In this document: piece by piece, positions 5,269-35,559 of the stretch
Layout of the letters: every line of letters starts with the position of its first letter
Numbering within the stretch: position 1 is the stretch's first letter
NCBI GenBank assembly: GCA_001771505.1
Contig: MEUA01000038.1
Coordinates: 1 to 35,782, forward strand
Reading direction: 5' to 3'
DNA length: 35,782 bases
Source of the DNA: a candidate division WOR-1 bacterium RIFOXYB2_FULL_36_35
GTDB taxonomy: Bacteria; Margulisbacteria; WOR-1; XYC2-FULL-46-14; XYC2-FULL-37-10
Made by a program: the position numbers and the translations under genes
Notes under the pieces: model-generated
What the model saw: only the letters and a program-made list of their open reading frames with translations
What the model was told of the DNA's origin: nothing
Databases searched by the model: none

Positions 5269-5370
5269 AATCCCGATTATTCACCCCGATTAGGAGAATC
5301 GGGGTTCACGTCAGAATCAATAATCAACAAATTGTCAAACAGTTACTCGAGGCATGAATAATTGGGGTTA
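5269..5370 (-). repeat. Palindromic repeat, subtype A, copy 1 (reverse orientation)
   Basis: A 102-bp element follows the tRNA. Its left end aatcccgattattca is complementary to the right end tgaataattggggtta (5355-5370). Next to the left end is an internal hairpin, accccgatt (5283-5291) and aatcggggt (5297-5305) around a 5-base loop. The core between hairpin and right end matches the reverse complement of the copy at 35455-35559, including caacaaattgtcaaaca. It is placed on the minus strand because subtype B copies and the other A copy have the hairpin near the right end. Confidence 0.85.
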
Positions 5371-14383: not shown

Positions 14384-15691
14384 ATGGGGCTAGGAATCGA
14401 ACCAACTGGAAATACCCCCTCATTTTATGCCCGATACTGGGCACAAGAAGAAGAAGAACGAAGTACGCCGAAAAATGAAAGAATACTATTTGAAAATGTT
14501 TCTGAAGATTTGCAAGATCCAATATACTCAGAAGCGGCAGATGCCTTGCTTGAAGAAATTTTAAAAAATAAGCCCGAGTTTTTAAGCGGCGTTAATAATT
14601 CAAAAGAACAATTATCTGTATTGTTAATTATAGTACAAGCCATTATACAAGAAAATTCTTTCTTTAAATTTGAAGGAGATACTTTTTCTGCTTTACCTTC
14701 CAGACAAGGGGGCCTTGATTTAAGGCTAAATGACAACCTTTTACACCCTTTAAGAAGAAAACTGGGAGACCTTTCTGCAAATGATCTGTTTTCTACGCCA
14801 AAAAATAAAAGAGTAGCCATGTGCGAAGAGATTTGCAATGTTATAGAATCACTTATAAATGCTTTCAACAAGAGAAACCCAGGACACCCATTAAAATCAT
14901 GGAGAGAATATTCAGGAATAGGAACATCGTCATATAAAACACACGTGGAACCTATCGTACAGTTATGTGATGGACGCACATTCAGATTAGCTTTGACTGA
15001 CCCAGGCAATCTCAAAATTGAAGAGATAACAACAAAAACAATAGATCCACGCGCTTCAGAATATGAAAGCATTAGAGTCCATCATTATAATGATGGGGTT
15101 ATAGCCTTAAATGGAGCAATTTATGAGCAAGACAATAAAACTCTTTCTGAAGAAAAAACAAAAGACGCAATAAGATCATTAACTGTAGCATATTCTATGA
15201 ACAAAAAAGATCCTCTTGTTCTGGAAAACTTATGGTTGGCATTCAGCTTAAGCCAGGGTGATAATAAAAAAGCCATGGAAAATATTTTTTCCGAGTCGCT
15301 TGCTCTTGGAAACACGAATATATGGTTTCATAAAGGCAATAAATATTTAGAAGAAAATAATTTAGATGACGCGAAAAAAGCCTTTCAGAGAGTCGCTCCT
15401 GATAACAACAATTACTGTGATACTCAAGATATACGTGCATATATACTATTGAAAGAAAATAAACCAGAAGAAGCAATGAAGCTATGTTTTACAACTCTCG
15501 AAAAAGACCCAAATCACCATAAAACTCTTTATTATTTAGGCATGGCCTTTTTTAATTTAAAGAGATATGAAAGGGCAGAAACAGCCTTCAATCTTTATGT
15601 AAAACAGGGGTGTAGAGAGGAAACCCCTGGAGATCTTTATTACTCATCAATTAAACATTTGTCAGCAATAAAGCAACTTCACCCCGATTAG
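14384..15691 (+). CDS. TPR-repeat protein with unrecognised N-terminal half
   Basis: A 435-residue soluble protein with no signal peptide or membrane segment. The N-terminal part (about 1-240), opening MGLGIEPTGNTPSFYARYWA, is not recognised. From about 245 to 430 there are TPR-like helix pairs, clearest in ALGNTNIWFHKGNKYLEENN, LDDAKKAFQRV, AYILLKENKPEEAMKLC and TLYYLGMAFFNLKRYERAE. TPRs usually bind other proteins, but no partner can be named. GAGG lies four bases before the ATG. The last residues HPD and the TAG stop are encoded inside a palindromic repeat hairpin (15681-15703), so the native C-terminus may have been replaced or trimmed. Confidence 0.75.
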   Translation: MGLGIEPTGNTPSFYARYWAQEEEERSTPKNERILFENVSEDLQDPIYSEAADALLEEILKNKPEFLSGVNNSKEQLSVLLIIVQAIIQENSFFKFEGDTFSALPSRQGGLDLRLNDNLLHPLRRKLGDLSANDLFSTPKNKRVAMCEEICNVIESLINAFNKRNPGHPLKSWREYSGIGTSSYKTHVEPIVQLCDGRTFRLALTDPGNLKIEEITTKTIDPRASEYESIRVHHYNDGVIALNGAIYEQDNKTLSEEKTKDAIRSLTVAYSMNKKDPLVLENLWLAFSLSQGDNKKAMENIFSESLALGNTNIWFHKGNKYLEENNLDDAKKAFQRVAPDNNNYCDTQDIRAYILLKENKPEEAMKLCFTTLEKDPNHHKTLYYLGMAFFNLKRYERAETAFNLYVKQGCREETPGDLYYSSIKHLSAIKQLHPD

Positions 15692-15703
15692 GACAATCGG
15701 GGT
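15681..15703. repeat. Palindromic repeat, hairpin-only copy at TPR gene stop
   Basis: accccgatt (15681-15689) and aatcggggt (15695-15703) form a 9-bp perfect stem around the loop aggac. The TAG stop of the TPR gene uses the last stem base and the first two loop bases. The outer arms of the full element are absent. Confidence 0.8.
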
Positions 15704-15786: not shown

Positions 15787-15823
15787 ACCCCGATTAGGAA
15801 ATCGGGGTGAATAATCGGGGTAA
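15787..15823. repeat. Palindromic repeat, hairpin plus right arm, before lipoprotein RBS
   Basis: Hairpin accccgatt (15787-15795) and aatcggggt (15800-15808), followed by the right arm gaataatcggggtaa (15809-15823). The left arm and core are missing. It ends three bases before AGGAGG (15826-15831), so the folded RNA would abut the ribosome-binding site of the lipoprotein gene. Confidence 0.8.
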
Positions 15824-18225: not shown

Positions 18226-18328
18226 TTAACCCCGATTATTCATAGACAAACAGAATTCTAGCAGAGTGTTAGAAATTTCCCCAGGTATGAACCCCGATTT
18301 CCTAATCGGGGTGAACAATCGGGGTTAA
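18226..18328 (+). repeat. Palindromic repeat, subtype B, copy 1
   Basis: A 103-bp element. Its left arm ttaaccccgattattca is complementary to its right arm tgaacaatcggggttaa, apart from one change. An internal hairpin, accccgatt (18291-18299) and aatcggggt (18304-18312), adjoins the right arm. It aligns without gaps to the copy at 35315-35417 with eight differences counted by eye. It lies between the divergent gpmI and the membrane-protein gene. No convincing target duplication is seen beyond the TTAA ends. Confidence 0.9.
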
Positions 18329-20657: not shown

Positions 20658-20680
20658 ACCCCCGAGTTCCTAATCGGGGT
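20658..20680. repeat. Palindromic repeat, imperfect hairpin copy
   Basis: acccccgagtt (20658-20668) followed by aatcggggt (20672-20680). The left half carries an extra C and an A/G change relative to accccgatt, so the stem is bulged. It lies between the radical SAM stop codon and the dxr start. Confidence 0.65.
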
Positions 20681-29290: not shown

Positions 29291-29395
29291 ATGAAACTTA
29301 TACAAAACAAAAAAAAGAATTATCAGCACAAAGAATTAGCAGATGGAAGGCGGTATGCTATGCCGCAAATATCAACAAATGGGCCCCGATTGTGA
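29291..29395 (+). CDS. Possible 34-residue ORF ending in a repeat
   Basis: ATG at 29291 opens a lysine-rich frame beginning MKLIQNKKKNYQHKELADGR, whose stop lies inside the repeat hairpin at 29384-29404. No ribosome-binding site is clear. It may be the 5' remnant of a longer gene cut off by the repeat, or not a gene. Confidence 0.25.
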   Translation: MKLIQNKKKNYQHKELADGRRYAMPQISTNGPRL

Positions 29396-29410
29396 TAATC
29401 GGGGTGAATA
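29384..29410. repeat. Palindromic repeat copy at start of secreted-protein gene
   Basis: ccccgatt (29384-29391) and aatcgggg (29397-29404) form a hairpin with loop gtgat, followed by tgaata of the right arm. Both candidate GTG starts of the next gene (29392 and 29404) lie within it. Confidence 0.75.
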
Positions 29411-30141
29411 AATTCTTAAAAAAAATACACATAATTATAATCATTGGCATCATTGCTGGCTTAACAATCTCAAACATCACATTTGGCCGAGAAGTTCTTC
29501 CTAACTTAAAAACTAGCGGAAAAAACATCGAGGACTTTATCCCGAAAGGCTGGGTAGTTGAGGATAAAGCCTATGGCGATCTAAATAATGATACACTCAA
29601 AGATTGGGCTTTAGTAATACAGGATACAAACAAAAAAAACTATACAACAAATAACAATCTGGAACATTCAATAAACGCAAACCCACGGATTCTTATAATT
29701 CTTTTCAACGACCCTGTGAAGAATATATTTGTTAGTGCGGAAAAAAACTATGCTTCTATTATTAAACATAATAATTTTACAATAGATGATCCTTTTGATG
29801 AAGTTTCAATCTTATCTAATGGGATCCTAAAAATTGATTTTCATTTTTTAGGTGGTGGTTCATCAAGATTAAATCAATCCTTTAAGTTTTGTTATCAAAA
29901 TAAAAGATTTGAGCTAATCGGAATTGACAAACAAATTATAGAAAGTGGCAGTGGTGATATTACAAATTACAGCTTCAACTTTATAACTTACAAAATGAAG
30001 TTAACCAAAGGGAACATTTCAAGGGACAAACCAGATTCCATAGAATGGAAAAAGTTTAAAGTAAAAGAAAAAATGACTCTTGATTTGATCTTAGACCCTT
30101 TTTCGTCCAAGTTATGGGATAAAATCATTATCCAGCCATAA
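29404..30141 (+). CDS. Secreted protein of unknown function
   Basis: About 245 residues starting with a basic then hydrophobic signal sequence (NKFLKKIHIIIIIGIIAG), so exported. The mature protein opens with FIPKGWVVEDKAYGDLNND and TLKDWALVIQD. This resembles the D-x-N-x-D calcium-loop motif and strand found in many exported proteins that begin 'GDLNxDgxxDxaxv'. The remainder is beta rich, without enzyme motifs. GTG at 29404 gives the neatest signal peptide; GTG at 29392 would add four residues. Both lie in a repeat copy and neither has a convincing ribosome-binding site, so the start is uncertain and the original 5' end may have been lost. Confidence 0.65.
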   Translation: MNKFLKKIHIIIIIGIIAGLTISNITFGREVLPNLKTSGKNIEDFIPKGWVVEDKAYGDLNNDTLKDWALVIQDTNKKNYTTNNNLEHSINANPRILIILFNDPVKNIFVSAEKNYASIIKHNNFTIDDPFDEVSILSNGILKIDFHFLGGGSSRLNQSFKFCYQNKRFELIGIDKQIIESGSGDITNYSFNFITYKMKLTKGNISRDKPDSIEWKKFKVKEKMTLDLILDPFSSKLWDKIIIQP

Positions 30142-30193: not shown

Positions 30194-33100
30194 ATGGTGG
30201 GAATAACTTACCAAAAATATACAGCGCAAAATCCAAGGAATGAAAGCGCCAGATTTTCCTTTCATTTTTATTCCCAGAGGATTTCAAGTTTTATGAGAGT
30301 GTTTGAAAACATTCTTATGCCAAAGCTATATAAGCAATTACAGGATAATCCTGGAAGTTTTGATTGCGACAATTTATCCAGGCTTGTAAGACAGTTAAAT
30401 ATCTTAACGGAGTTACAGGAACTAACACTGGACAACATATCCGCACTTGACCTTAGAGATACTTTTTGTTCTCCGTCAAATCAGGAATCCACGCCAACCG
30501 AAGAAGCCATGTTTAGAATAAAATATCTTGCATCAAAATTAGGGCATAGCATAAAACGTCATGGAGATTATCGCACAAGCGAACCTATGGGCCTTAGCTT
30601 CGCATATGATAATCAGGATTATCTGGTTTTAGGGACCAGAAACGAAGTAGAAGAAGGGATAAAAGCTGGGACATTACGCTATCAAAGATTGGGGCGACCA
30701 TTATTTTATCTAGAACTTTCCACCCCGCAAACAGTTACATCTCCCACAGACAGCCTTAAAACAAGCAATGCTCTATTAATATTAAAAACTGATGATTCAG
30801 AAACGACTCTATCCAAAGTAAGGATAAAAGCACGAAGAATGATTATGCCATCCAGATTTCATTTTGTCCCGCCGCACACGCTGGAAAAAAGAATTAAGGC
30901 TTTGATTTTAGATGGTGAATATTCTTCTGCAGCGCTCTTAATTTTCGGAGCTTTTTCTAATTTTAGAAAATCTGAAGAATTAATCGACTCCCTACATATA
31001 AAGTTTTTAAAAGGATACCTTTGTGAAACAAGCGAGCCAAATTGCGTGGCAAAATACCTTTGCTGGGTTGCAAAACAAAGAGGAGCTAAAGAAGCATTGG
31101 AAATTATCAGAGGAACATCCCTTGCGACAGATAGCAAAGAAGTTTTATGCGGCGGATTTTCTGATCCCAAAAAAGCAGGAGTAATCCTTTTTAAAATAGC
31201 CCTTATGCAACCTAAGCTGGCAAACAAACTGTGCGAAGACGCAATGCAGGAAATAAATCCCGGCATAATTAAAAATGCTCTTGATTTCTTGCATAACTCC
31301 CGCCCCTCTTTATTTAAAAGCTCGGTAGAATATCAGGAAGATCCACGCTCAATATTTAAAAACAGGGGGAGGCTTTTGGGCCCAACTATCCCGGTTAAAA
31401 AAAGAGGTTTATCCATATCCGCAGATACGATAGACACCATTTTTTCTAATCCGGCAAATCATGTGGCTTCCGTCTCAAATCCAGAAAAACATGAACCCCG
31501 ATTTCCCAATCGTGGTGAAATAGAACTTTATCGTGAAAGGGGATGGGAAACAGAATATGCCATTTTGGAAAAAGCAGATGTTACTAAGGCATTAGTGCAA
31601 GATTTAACAGTAAAAGGAGATTATGAGTCCGCCTGCGGGCTTTTATTTGAAGAAGAAAGATCTATCGAAGAGATAGCGGAAATCTTAAACATTCAGGCTC
31701 TCCTCCCTGCCCAGATTATGGGAATTTTAGGGTGTCTGCCTAAGGAAAGCTTACAAAAGTTATTGGCTGTTGCAATTGAATATGGGAAAGGAAAATTATT
31801 ACACGGAGAATTACGAGATCCTTTCCTTCTAGGTTTGCTATTTGCCTTGGCAAAACTTGATACAACAAGTTTATCTTCTCTTCTTAATGAAATGATCCAA
31901 CACGAGGATCCCCAATCTCTTGGTGTGTACCCTCAAAGAGAGGCCGCCTACATCATCTTACAGGAAGGGATGGATCCTTTAAAAGAGAGTCACACAAGAT
32001 ACCTTTCAGCATTGGAACAGTTATGTTCAATGCGTGAAGAATATGCTACGCCAATAGATTTTATCCTTTATCAGCAACTACTGCCGGATGATAAAAAACC
32101 GGCTACCCCTTACGCTCAGGCCGATTTTTATTTAAGGTTAATTCAGGCAGAAGATCAGCCGCAAGTTATAAGGTTGCAAGCTACGGTTAGATTAGTACAA
32201 TTAGGAAAGATAAAAGGTGATATTGAAAAAATATTACCCAGAAAAGAGTTTGTCCTCCTCTTAAGAGAAGTAATTTCAGCAAAACATCCTCTCATAAGTT
32301 ACCACAATTTAGAAGCTCTAATGAGTAGCATAGATTATGACTGCGGAGAAGAATTAGCTATACAATTAAAAGCAATCCAAAATACAGACATACAACTCAA
32401 GCGCTTCGCCGAGTATCTGCGCTTTATCAATATAGGGATAAGATTAATGCGCTCCACATCAAATGAGGAGAAAGAAGAGGGATTGTCAATGCTTCTGCAA
32501 CTAAGAGACAAGCGGCAGGCCAATCTTTTTGTCTCTGATCAAGGCTTACATACACACAAGAGTGAAAAAATCCGCGAGGCATTCGCATCCGCAATTCCAT
32601 CCCTTTATGGTAAAGAGACCGCTACAAAGTTATTGGAGGAGATGCGCAAAGACAAAAGTGACAAGGTAAAAACAGCAAGAAATTTTGCAATAATACAGCT
32701 TCTCAAAAAGAGTAAAGAGAGAGCCAAATTAAGAAGGCTTGTCGACTCTCCCGATAAAGATATAAGTTCTGCTGCGGGGGAGGCGTTGTTTGATATATAT
32801 CAAGAAGAAGAGAGCAGGCCAGGACTAACAGATTTGGCAACAGCACAAAATCTTTCTGATGCGCTGCGAATAAAATCGGGGGGGAGATTATGTGCTATAG
32901 ATCTTGAGACTCAAGCCTTCTCCTCACTTGAAGAGATGGAAGTAGACAGATTTATGCCTGAATCTCTCAGAAAAAATCTTGCACTATTCAACAAGTTAAG
33001 AAAAGAATTTTTACATCTTACGCAAGAAACATCACAAACAGAAATCGACGCTGTTATAGATGAAGTTGTAGATTTAATAATTGCAGAGAAAAGGGAGCAA

Positions 33101-34108
33101 GGGGATCATAAAAAACTTTTTCAAATAATAAAAGAGTACGACTTCTCGCCAAAAATCAACCAAAAGATTGCAGTTGCCTGGCGAGAAATACTTTGTGAAA
33201 AAAATGCAGCCGAAGCAAAAAAAACATTAGAGCAGGCTGCTCCACAATGGCCAAGCAACAACAACATTCCAGAATGCATTAGACAAGAAGCCCAAAGATA
33301 TATAAAAACGCTCAAAAGATCAGCACAGATTGAAACGCAAGGGGAAAGAGATTCTACTCCATACAAAGAAAAGCTTATCGCAATTTCAGATCCAGAATTT
33401 ACAAACTTCATGATTGAGTTACATGCTGCAGAAGAGATTTCTAGCATATCAAACTTAGAAAATTTAGCGAAAAAAACCAGAGAGCATCCTGAATGGGAAA
33501 ACAGAGTAAGGATGGCGCAAGTGAAAATAGCTATTGAAAAAAAAGATATTGCCGAATTAATAAGGCTTGCCTCCTTTAAAAGACCCGATTTTGATCTTCC
33601 GCAATTTAGACCCGCATATCTAACCGCAGCGGAAAATGGAGCTATAGACTTAATTAGGCAATCTGAAGATGAAGAAGAGCTGCTTATTCTGCGAGATACA
33701 CCGGTTTTGTACAAACCAGATAGTATCACCCAGGAAATAAACCAAAGCCTTGCTGAAATAGCCGTTAAAAAAAGCGAGAAAAGCAAGCTAATTAAGTCCA
33801 TTGTCATCCCTTATCCTGAAATGTCAGAGAGAACAAGAGAACATATAGCAAAAGCGCTAATATCTATTTATGAAGAAGAAGAAAACATCCCTGAACTAAC
33901 AACAATATCCTTTTCTACCCTCTTTAATCAAGGAATAAGAGATAAAGCCCTTGATGCTATTGAAAGGGTATTGATTATGCAGCGCGAAGTTATAAAATTA
34001 AGAGATATGTCAATGGTTAAAGGTAGAAGACAAGAAAGTGTCAAGCAAGCATATCAAAAAGCTATTGAGCTTCTTCGAAAAGATTTTGTAACAACGGAGC
34101 AATCATGA
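30194..34108 (+). CDS. Very large alpha-helical (solenoid-like) protein, unknown function
   Basis: A 1304-residue protein with no signal peptide, membrane segment or recognised catalytic domain. It is mostly amphipathic helices in repeated pairs, for example KALILDGEYSSAALLIFGAF, LRLIQAEDQPQVIRLQATVR, ATKLLEEMRKDKSDKVKTAR and LRRLVDSPDKDISSAAGEAL, consistent with HEAT/TPR-like scaffolds. A beta-containing section at about 105-230 (MGLSFAYDNQDYLVLGTRNE) may be a separate domain. Residues 434-442 (EPRFPNRGE) come from an in-frame copy of the palindromic repeat. The ATG at 30194 lacks a ribosome-binding site; ATG 30293 (MRVFENILM), preceded by AGAGGA at 11 bases, is an alternative. The stop overlaps the next start (ATGA), so the two genes are translationally coupled. 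Confidence 0.7.
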   Translation: MVGITYQKYTAQNPRNESARFSFHFYSQRISSFMRVFENILMPKLYKQLQDNPGSFDCDNLSRLVRQLNILTELQELTLDNISALDLRDTFCSPSNQESTPTEEAMFRIKYLASKLGHSIKRHGDYRTSEPMGLSFAYDNQDYLVLGTRNEVEEGIKAGTLRYQRLGRPLFYLELSTPQTVTSPTDSLKTSNALLILKTDDSETTLSKVRIKARRMIMPSRFHFVPPHTLEKRIKALILDGEYSSAALLIFGAFSNFRKSEELIDSLHIKFLKGYLCETSEPNCVAKYLCWVAKQRGAKEALEIIRGTSLATDSKEVLCGGFSDPKKAGVILFKIALMQPKLANKLCEDAMQEINPGIIKNALDFLHNSRPSLFKSSVEYQEDPRSIFKNRGRLLGPTIPVKKRGLSISADTIDTIFSNPANHVASVSNPEKHEPRFPNRGEIELYRERGWETEYAILEKADVTKALVQDLTVKGDYESACGLLFEEERSIEEIAEILNIQALLPAQIMGILGCLPKESLQKLLAVAIEYGKGKLLHGELRDPFLLGLLFALAKLDTTSLSSLLNEMIQHEDPQSLGVYPQREAAYIILQEGMDPLKESHTRYLSALEQLCSMREEYATPIDFILYQQLLPDDKKPATPYAQADFYLRLIQAEDQPQVIRLQATVRLVQLGKIKGDIEKILPRKEFVLLLREVISAKHPLISYHNLEALMSSIDYDCGEELAIQLKAIQNTDIQLKRFAEYLRFINIGIRLMRSTSNEEKEEGLSMLLQLRDKRQANLFVSDQGLHTHKSEKIREAFASAIPSLYGKETATKLLEEMRKDKSDKVKTARNFAIIQLLKKSKERAKLRRLVDSPDKDISSAAGEALFDIYQEEESRPGLTDLATAQNLSDALRIKSGGRLCAIDLETQAFSSLEEMEVDRFMPESLRKNLALFNKLRKEFLHLTQETSQTEIDAVIDEVVDLIIAEKREQGDHKKLFQIIKEYDFSPKINQKIAVAWREILCEKNAAEAKKTLEQAAPQWPSNNNIPECIRQEAQRYIKTLKRSAQIETQGERDSTPYKEKLIAISDPEFTNFMIELHAAEEISSISNLENLAKKTREHPEWENRVRMAQVKIAIEKKDIAELIRLASFKRPDFDLPQFRPAYLTAAENGAIDLIRQSEDEEELLILRDTPVLYKPDSITQEINQSLAEIAVKKSEKSKLIKSIVIPYPEMSERTREHIAKALISIYEEEENIPELTTISFSTLFNQGIRDKALDAIERVLIMQREVIKLRDMSMVKGRRQESVKQAYQKAIELLRKDFVTTEQS
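31495..31516. repeat. Palindromic repeat copy inside the 1304-residue gene
   Basis: accccgatt (31495-31503), loop tccc, aatcgtggt (31508-31516), flanked by atga and gaaa as in the full elements. One stem base differs (T for G). It is translated in frame as PRFPNRG and does not interrupt the gene. Confidence 0.75.
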
Positions 34109-35314: not shown

Positions 35315-35417
35315 TTAACCCCGATTATTTATAGACGAACAGAATTATATCAGAGTGTTGGAACTTTTCCCAGGTATGAACCCCGATTTCCTAATCGGGG
35401 TGAATAATCGGGGTTAA
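35315..35417 (+). repeat. Palindromic repeat, subtype B, copy 2
   Basis: A 103-bp element with arms ttaaccccgattattta and tgaataatcggggttaa and an internal hairpin accccgatt/aatcggggt next to the right arm. It is collinear with the copy at 18226-18328; substitutions concentrate in the core between the left arm and the hairpin, while both halves of the hairpin are identical. Confidence 0.9.
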
Positions 35418-35455: not shown

Positions 35456-35559
35456 TAACCCCGATTACTCATACCTCGAATCAATGTTTGACAATTTGTT
35501 GGTTATTGATTCTAGCGTGAACCTCGATTATGATAATCGGGGTGAATAATCGGGGTTAA
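35455..35559 (+). repeat. Palindromic repeat, subtype A, copy 2
   Basis: A 105-bp element with left arm ttaaccccgattactca, right arm tgaataatcggggttaa and inner hairpin acctcgatt (35521-35529) with aatcggggt (35535-35543). The core contains a further inverted pair, gaatcaat and attgattc. Its reverse complement aligns along the full length with 5269-5370. It begins 37 bases after the subtype B copy, in the same orientation. Confidence 0.88.

Follow-up and report, generated by a model that had tools for sequence, protein, structure and literature searches.

The window analysed here, the whole contig C38 (35,782 bp) of a 1.95-Mb draft genome in 67 contigs, carries within the gene for a HEAT-like solenoid protein a 20-bp palindrome that is very probably a copy of a miniature, non-autonomous MITE-like element, which duplicates 4 bp of its target, keeps the frame of its host gene and adds a peptide that is tolerated rather than selected. 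The palindrome, CCCCGATTTCCCAATCGTGG, lies on the forward strand at 31496-31515, between a left (31492-31495) and a right (31516-31519) target copy, both TGAA, and the sequence spanning about 31490-31523 is CATGAACCCCGATTTCCCAATCGTGGTGAAATAG. A sequence-only reading had proposed a hairpin translated in frame within a protein of 1304 residues, and such an open frame was confirmed by the ORF at 30194-34108 (forward strand), of which codons 434-442 read EPRFPNRGE, that is, PRFPNRG between two Glu codons; genes were taken throughout from ORFs without a gene finder. The copy matches the consensus at 18 of 20 bases and its two differences, CCT>CCC and CGG>CGT, are both synonymous. The CGG>CGT change disrupts one stem pair and leaves an imperfect hairpin, with a folding energy of -4.5 kcal/mol as DNA (z = -2.2).

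The palindrome belongs to a family whose copy number could be established directly. The window contains five matches to the 20-mer at up to 3 mismatches, including the copy in the solenoid gene, when 0.00 are expected from shuffled windows, and the whole genome has about 108 copies of the 22-mer ACCCCGATTTCCTAATCGGGGT at up to 3 mismatches and 63 copies of a 14-nt core at up to 1 mismatch, while the reversed-pattern control gave 0. Several copies still match the consensus exactly. No copies were found at up to 3 mismatches in 8 other genomes of the order or at up to 2 mismatches in 73 other genomes of the phylum, and the viral contigs searched had no match to the palindrome. Among GTDB genomes, ACCCCGATTNNNNAATCGGGGT matches 93 stretches, 80 of which were made into loci, and these were rejected as the same element, as none of those read has a TCCT/AGGA loop with TGAA flanks; they are mostly terminator-like, or part of another element (GATACGTTCGACGGCGCC..) that occurs in Acidobacteriota, Desulfobacterota and Aminicenantes. 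In MAGs of these three groups (L146, L149, L150, L157, L161, L182, L185 and others) a different dispersed element, GATACGTTCGACGGCGCCAA-ACCCCGATTTNNAAATCGGGGT-..GCGCCGCTCAGTATCAACCC, has many copies and a near-identical hairpin, and some of its copies are held in open frames.

The short form has the consensus CCCCGATT-TCCT-AATCGGGG and measures 20 bp, or 21 bp when the loop has five bases. It shares its ends (CCCCGATTATTCA) with a long form of 71 bp, CCCCGATTATTCATA...TATGAATAATCGGGG, and the same ends are also found around other interiors. Many long copies have the short palindrome nested in their right TGAA or left TTCA, giving 95 bp, and un-nested long copies exist as well. In the window, two intergenic long elements of 95 bp on the forward strand (18230-18324, with terminal inverted repeats and a nested short copy at 18292-18311, and 35319-35413, with one at 35381-35400) have duplicated TTAA, as does a 97-bp element with a different interior (35459-35555, forward; nested 21-bp palindrome at 35522-35542), and a second type of interior is found at 5271-5367 (forward; nested 21-bp palindrome at 5284-5304). 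The other short copies comprise an intergenic 21-bp palindrome (15682-15702, forward), a 20-bp palindrome (15788-15807) fused to a long-element end on the reverse strand (15788-15820) with TAAA on both sides, an intergenic 20-bp palindrome between TGAC and TGAA (20660-20679, forward) and a 21-bp palindrome overlapping the start region of the ORF at 29392-30141 (29384-29404, forward).

The targets are TNAA/TTNA, mostly TGAA, and their 4 bp are duplicated. The same 4-mer stands on both sides of 87 of the 167 short copies (where shuffled pairing gives 38 on average and 58 at most), of 15 of the 18 71-bp copies (shuffled pairing: 5) and of 32 of the 39 copies of 95-97 bp (shuffled pairing: 12); the lack of identical flanking 4-mers in about half of the short copies is partly due to decay and nesting. 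Five or six kinds of word are duplicated, among them TTAA, TGAA, TTCA, TAAA and TTTA, and the two flanks vary in step, which is characteristic of target duplications and argues against an IS200/IS605-type insertion next to a fixed tetranucleotide. The earlier claim that the copy in the solenoid gene has the same flanks as the intergenic ones holds for the 4-bp TGAA duplication and fails for any longer shared flank.

We also considered that the palindrome could move as a single strand, in the manner of IS200/IS605 or RAYT systems, through a Y1 transposase, the second TGAA then being part of the element as in REP/REPIN. The tetranucleotides on each side of the hairpin would fit this, and a Y1_Tnp search of the genome did give a single match (C41:23275-23640; L143), but this gene is interrupted by an internal TAA and lies between hairpins of the GAGCGTAAGCTC type; it is a decayed IS200/IS605 copy whose flanking hairpins are unrelated to the palindrome. 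Furthermore, the joint variation of the flanking words, the loop lying either way relative to TGAA and the missing GTAG/CGTC tags all speak against single-strand movement, which we regard as unlikely. As to other mobilising enzymes, a DDE_Tnp_1 search of the genome gave no match, the one widely spaced pair of ends that was examined (C11:5846-9270) encloses ordinary genes and no transposase, and among the end matches listed (about 100 of 270) no parent insertion sequence sharing these ends was found.

Comparison with relatives revealed empty sites at the DNA level, which demonstrate insertion. The antiporter-like gene has in the relative genome G002 an orthologue with 92% amino-acid identity (85% at the DNA level over 3.6 kb), and the sole 24-nt gap in this length, between CCAAGATGTGAACCCCGATTTCCTAATCGGGGTGAATATAC and its G002 counterpart CCAAGATGTGAATATAC, corresponds to the palindrome plus one target copy. 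In the case of TatD, GATGAACCCCGATTTCCTAATCGGGGTGAATATCC (GATGAA-24 nt-TATCC) differs from GATGAATATCC of G002 by exactly 24 nt missing in the latter; the insert is missing in all seven relatives with the gene (G002 and six more), and the comparison with a solved structure of TatD (PDB 6l25) leaves an 8-residue gap at its place. These 24 nt are the 20-bp palindrome and the duplicated TGAA. Similarly, a long-form insert of about 23 residues in Dus (tRNA-dihydrouridine synthase) is missing in 7 relatives.

The kin of the solenoid gene are two paralogues in its own genome (C40 and C10) and one homologue in G002; scans of the genus, family, order and GTDB returned distant homologues and no close orthologue, for which reason we infer the exact empty site of this gene from more remote comparisons. 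In a BLASTP alignment with the paralogue on C40 (E = 6e-94), a 7-residue gap falls exactly at PRFPNRG (KHEPRFPNRGEIELY against KET-------AIVLY), and in a MAFFT alignment with three homologues all three are gapped at these residues. The alignment with relatives called for by the sequence-only reading thus yielded the expected gap in a paralogue, and none of the window protein's repeat-free homologues was seen to share the residues of the insert. It is strongly indicated by these alignments that PRFPNRG is an insertion in this gene, of undated arrival. That these residues have always belonged to the solenoid protein and resemble the repeat by chance is hardly credible: their site does lie in a poorly conserved linker, but so close a match to the palindrome together with both TGAA flanks has an expectation of 0.00, and the gap in the paralogue coincides exactly with the insert.

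The insertion reading extends to many other genes. When the surroundings of nearly all copies were examined for long open frames, 16 stand-alone short copies proved to lie in long ORFs. They share one frame and a 24-nt footprint, are all stop-free, and read GAA CCC CGA TTn nnn AAT CGG GGT GAA with later substitutions in some. With the loop TCCT this gives EPRFPNRGE, and with the flipped loop AGGA, EPRLGNRGE; PRFPNRG was indeed found in frame in several of the genome's other proteins, where the earlier reading had advised looking. The hosts include a GAF histidine kinase (C1), the proton-antiporter-like protein (C4), TatD (C22), a TPR protein (C34), a DUF362-like protein (C40), a 1645-residue protein (C24), the window gene and others; the labels TPR and DUF362 are our reading of the sequence, while the other names include Pfam identities. 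Two independent short insertions each were observed in the 1645-residue protein (L101) and in a 567-residue protein (C28; L106). The long relative, of 71 bp or of 95 bp when nested, also keeps the frame and encodes about 23-33 residues within Dus, two glycosyltransferase family 9 genes and others. These two distinct glycosyltransferase genes (C18:26229, L089, and C29:5698, L108) carry the long element mid-gene, around a likely interdomain linker. Long elements also occur near the N-termini of an IMPase (C40:58109) and an SLH protein (C31:28842), and their status as gene inserts is uncertain because translation could start further on; in the SLH protein (L111) a reverse-reading long element (PRLFTPIRKSGFIPGKIFNTLLEFCSSMNNRG) separates MQKKI from the hydrophobic part of the signal peptide. 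We infer, judging from sequence, that the inserts in host proteins are translated.

Frame preservation follows from the size of the units. With a 4-bp duplication, 20 bp gives a footprint of 24 nt (8 codons), 71 bp one of 75 nt (25 codons) and 95 bp one of 99 nt (33 codons), whereas a 21-bp copy, with a footprint of 25 nt, is frame-shifting. When the element and one target copy were removed by script, an ORF of 150 codons or more was found at 20 of 43 stand-alone 20-bp copies and at 1 of 24 21-bp copies (P = 0.00025), showing that the copies in genes are the frame-keeping ones. A direct count of copies in ORFs (24 of 86 for 20 bp, 0 of 42 for 21 bp) suffers from some circularity, since a copy that shifts the frame disrupts its own ORF, and is superseded by this empty-site count. 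These figures bear on the possibility that ribosomes bypass the in-gene copies, as with the palindromes of Magnusiomyces (yeast) mitochondria mentioned in PMC6649704, so that no peptide would be made. Bypassed palindromes are thus known elsewhere, and the present hairpins do sit in coding sequence, but bypass requires neither open frames nor multiples of three, and yet every one of the 16 stand-alone gene copies has both and the frame-shifting 21-bp copies are nearly missing from ORFs; we consider bypass very unlikely.

A frame-keeping insert, if translated, raises the question of selection on its peptide. The sense-strand TGA.A phase is impossible within an ORF, as it is a stop, and therefore two other phases are open if the loop is TCCT. 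By availability, the phase with the codon boundary after the T (T/GAA) has an expected share of 0.58 among stop-free TGAA/TTCA insertions, and apart from decayed flanks every stand-alone gene copy has this phase on the coding strand. This suggests that the hydrophilic PRFPNRG is better tolerated than NPDFLIGV. It could also be taken, together with the synonymous nature of both changes in the window copy, as a sign that the peptide has been co-opted as a linker, binding or processing site and that the gene copies are under selection. Against this, the changes accumulated by the 16 gene copies, 6 synonymous and 16 non-synonymous, lie close to the drift expectation and give no sign of purifying selection on the peptide, the host proteins are functionally unrelated and relatives manage without the insert, so that co-option appears quite unlikely.

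According to the miniature-element reading, a short element would enter a TNAA/TTNA target, mostly TGAA, and duplicate its 4 bp, the reaction being probably carried out in trans by a TNAA-targeting transposase acting on passenger elements. The short palindrome would likewise nest in the TGAA/TTCA of the longer element, which has the same ends and the same targets. In a gene, the gain of 24 nt would amount to eight codons and leave the host frame intact, and the insertion would probably persist if it is frame-neutral and lies where eight added residues are tolerated, the peptide being then a tolerated hydrophilic insert with no selected function.

The likeness to Rickettsia pointed out by the sequence-only reading, a mobile palindrome whose added peptide proteins can bear, is supported, since PRFPNRG recurs and its residues are missing in relatives that have no repeat. 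Rickettsia palindromic elements (RPE; Ogata 2000, 2002, as cited in PMC3767692, PMC10969869 and PMC3733652) are 100-150 bp long and their insertions in Rickettsia orthologues are mostly at shared sites (PMC3767692); RPE-4 and RPE-6 are CGTC-tagged repeats (PMC3733652). Both systems have palindromes dispersed between and within genes, in frame, with a recurrent peptide in unrelated proteins, and both have several families whose repeat identity fades over time. In contrast, the present units are of 20 bp (24-nt footprint) or 71-97 bp, outside the RPE range, are not CGTC-tagged and show clearly duplicated 4-bp TNAA targets as well as empty sites in the DNA. As regards the host, Rickettsia or Wolbachia for RPEs, the gene content here (SLH, antiporter-like) does not suggest Rickettsiales. 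The present elements may be said to work like RPEs, the analogy being one of description and no evidence of sequence kinship. Intragenic GTAG- or CGTC-tagged REPs are known in Opitutus terrae, Thauera, Xanthomonas and others (PMC3733652), so that the mere presence of in-frame palindromes beyond Rickettsia has precedents. Those are also short palindromes in ORFs, adding 20-30 or more residues, but our elements have no GTAG/CGTC tag, end in TNAA followed by CCCCGATT and have varying target duplications; unlike REP/REPIN sequences with their RAYT, no intact Y1 transposase is flanked by the present repeat.

With bacterial MITEs (reviewed in PMC10969869; QMITE1/2 of Coxiella, PMC5896051) the elements share terminal inverted repeats (CCCCGATT..AATCGGGG in the short form, CCCCGATTATTCATA..TATGAATAATCGGGG in the long one), 4-bp target duplications, many copies and units (20-97 bp) without their own transposase, and, with QMITE2, the occurrence of a long form beside a short, REP-like one. 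They differ in that the short form is far under the usual 70-400 bp and in the frame-keeping insertions in many genes. The small dispersed repeats (SDR) of cyanobacteria resemble the short form in size, each mobile unit having only some 20-odd bp. Cyanobacterial SDR are cited in PMC3116915. What sets the present family apart is the absence of REP tags, a size smaller than RPEs and standard MITEs, and clear target duplications.

Rickettsia provides the best-known cases of palindromes inserted in frame into genes; that MITEs could shape proteins thus in other prokaryotes was no more than surmised in a 2024 review (PMC10969869). It is possible, although rather doubtful, that the format is adapted to coding DNA, with whole-codon footprints (24, 75 and 99 nt), a stop-proof TGAA target and arms reading PR..NRG from both strands; if true, this would be a selfish element shaped for survival in genes and, with its 20 bp, one of the smallest known transposable units. 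Here the insertions are directly readable as 24-nt empty sites and duplicated targets, the frame-keeping and frame-shifting size classes provide a built-in control, and the gain by proteins of short segments from mobile DNA becomes directly testable.
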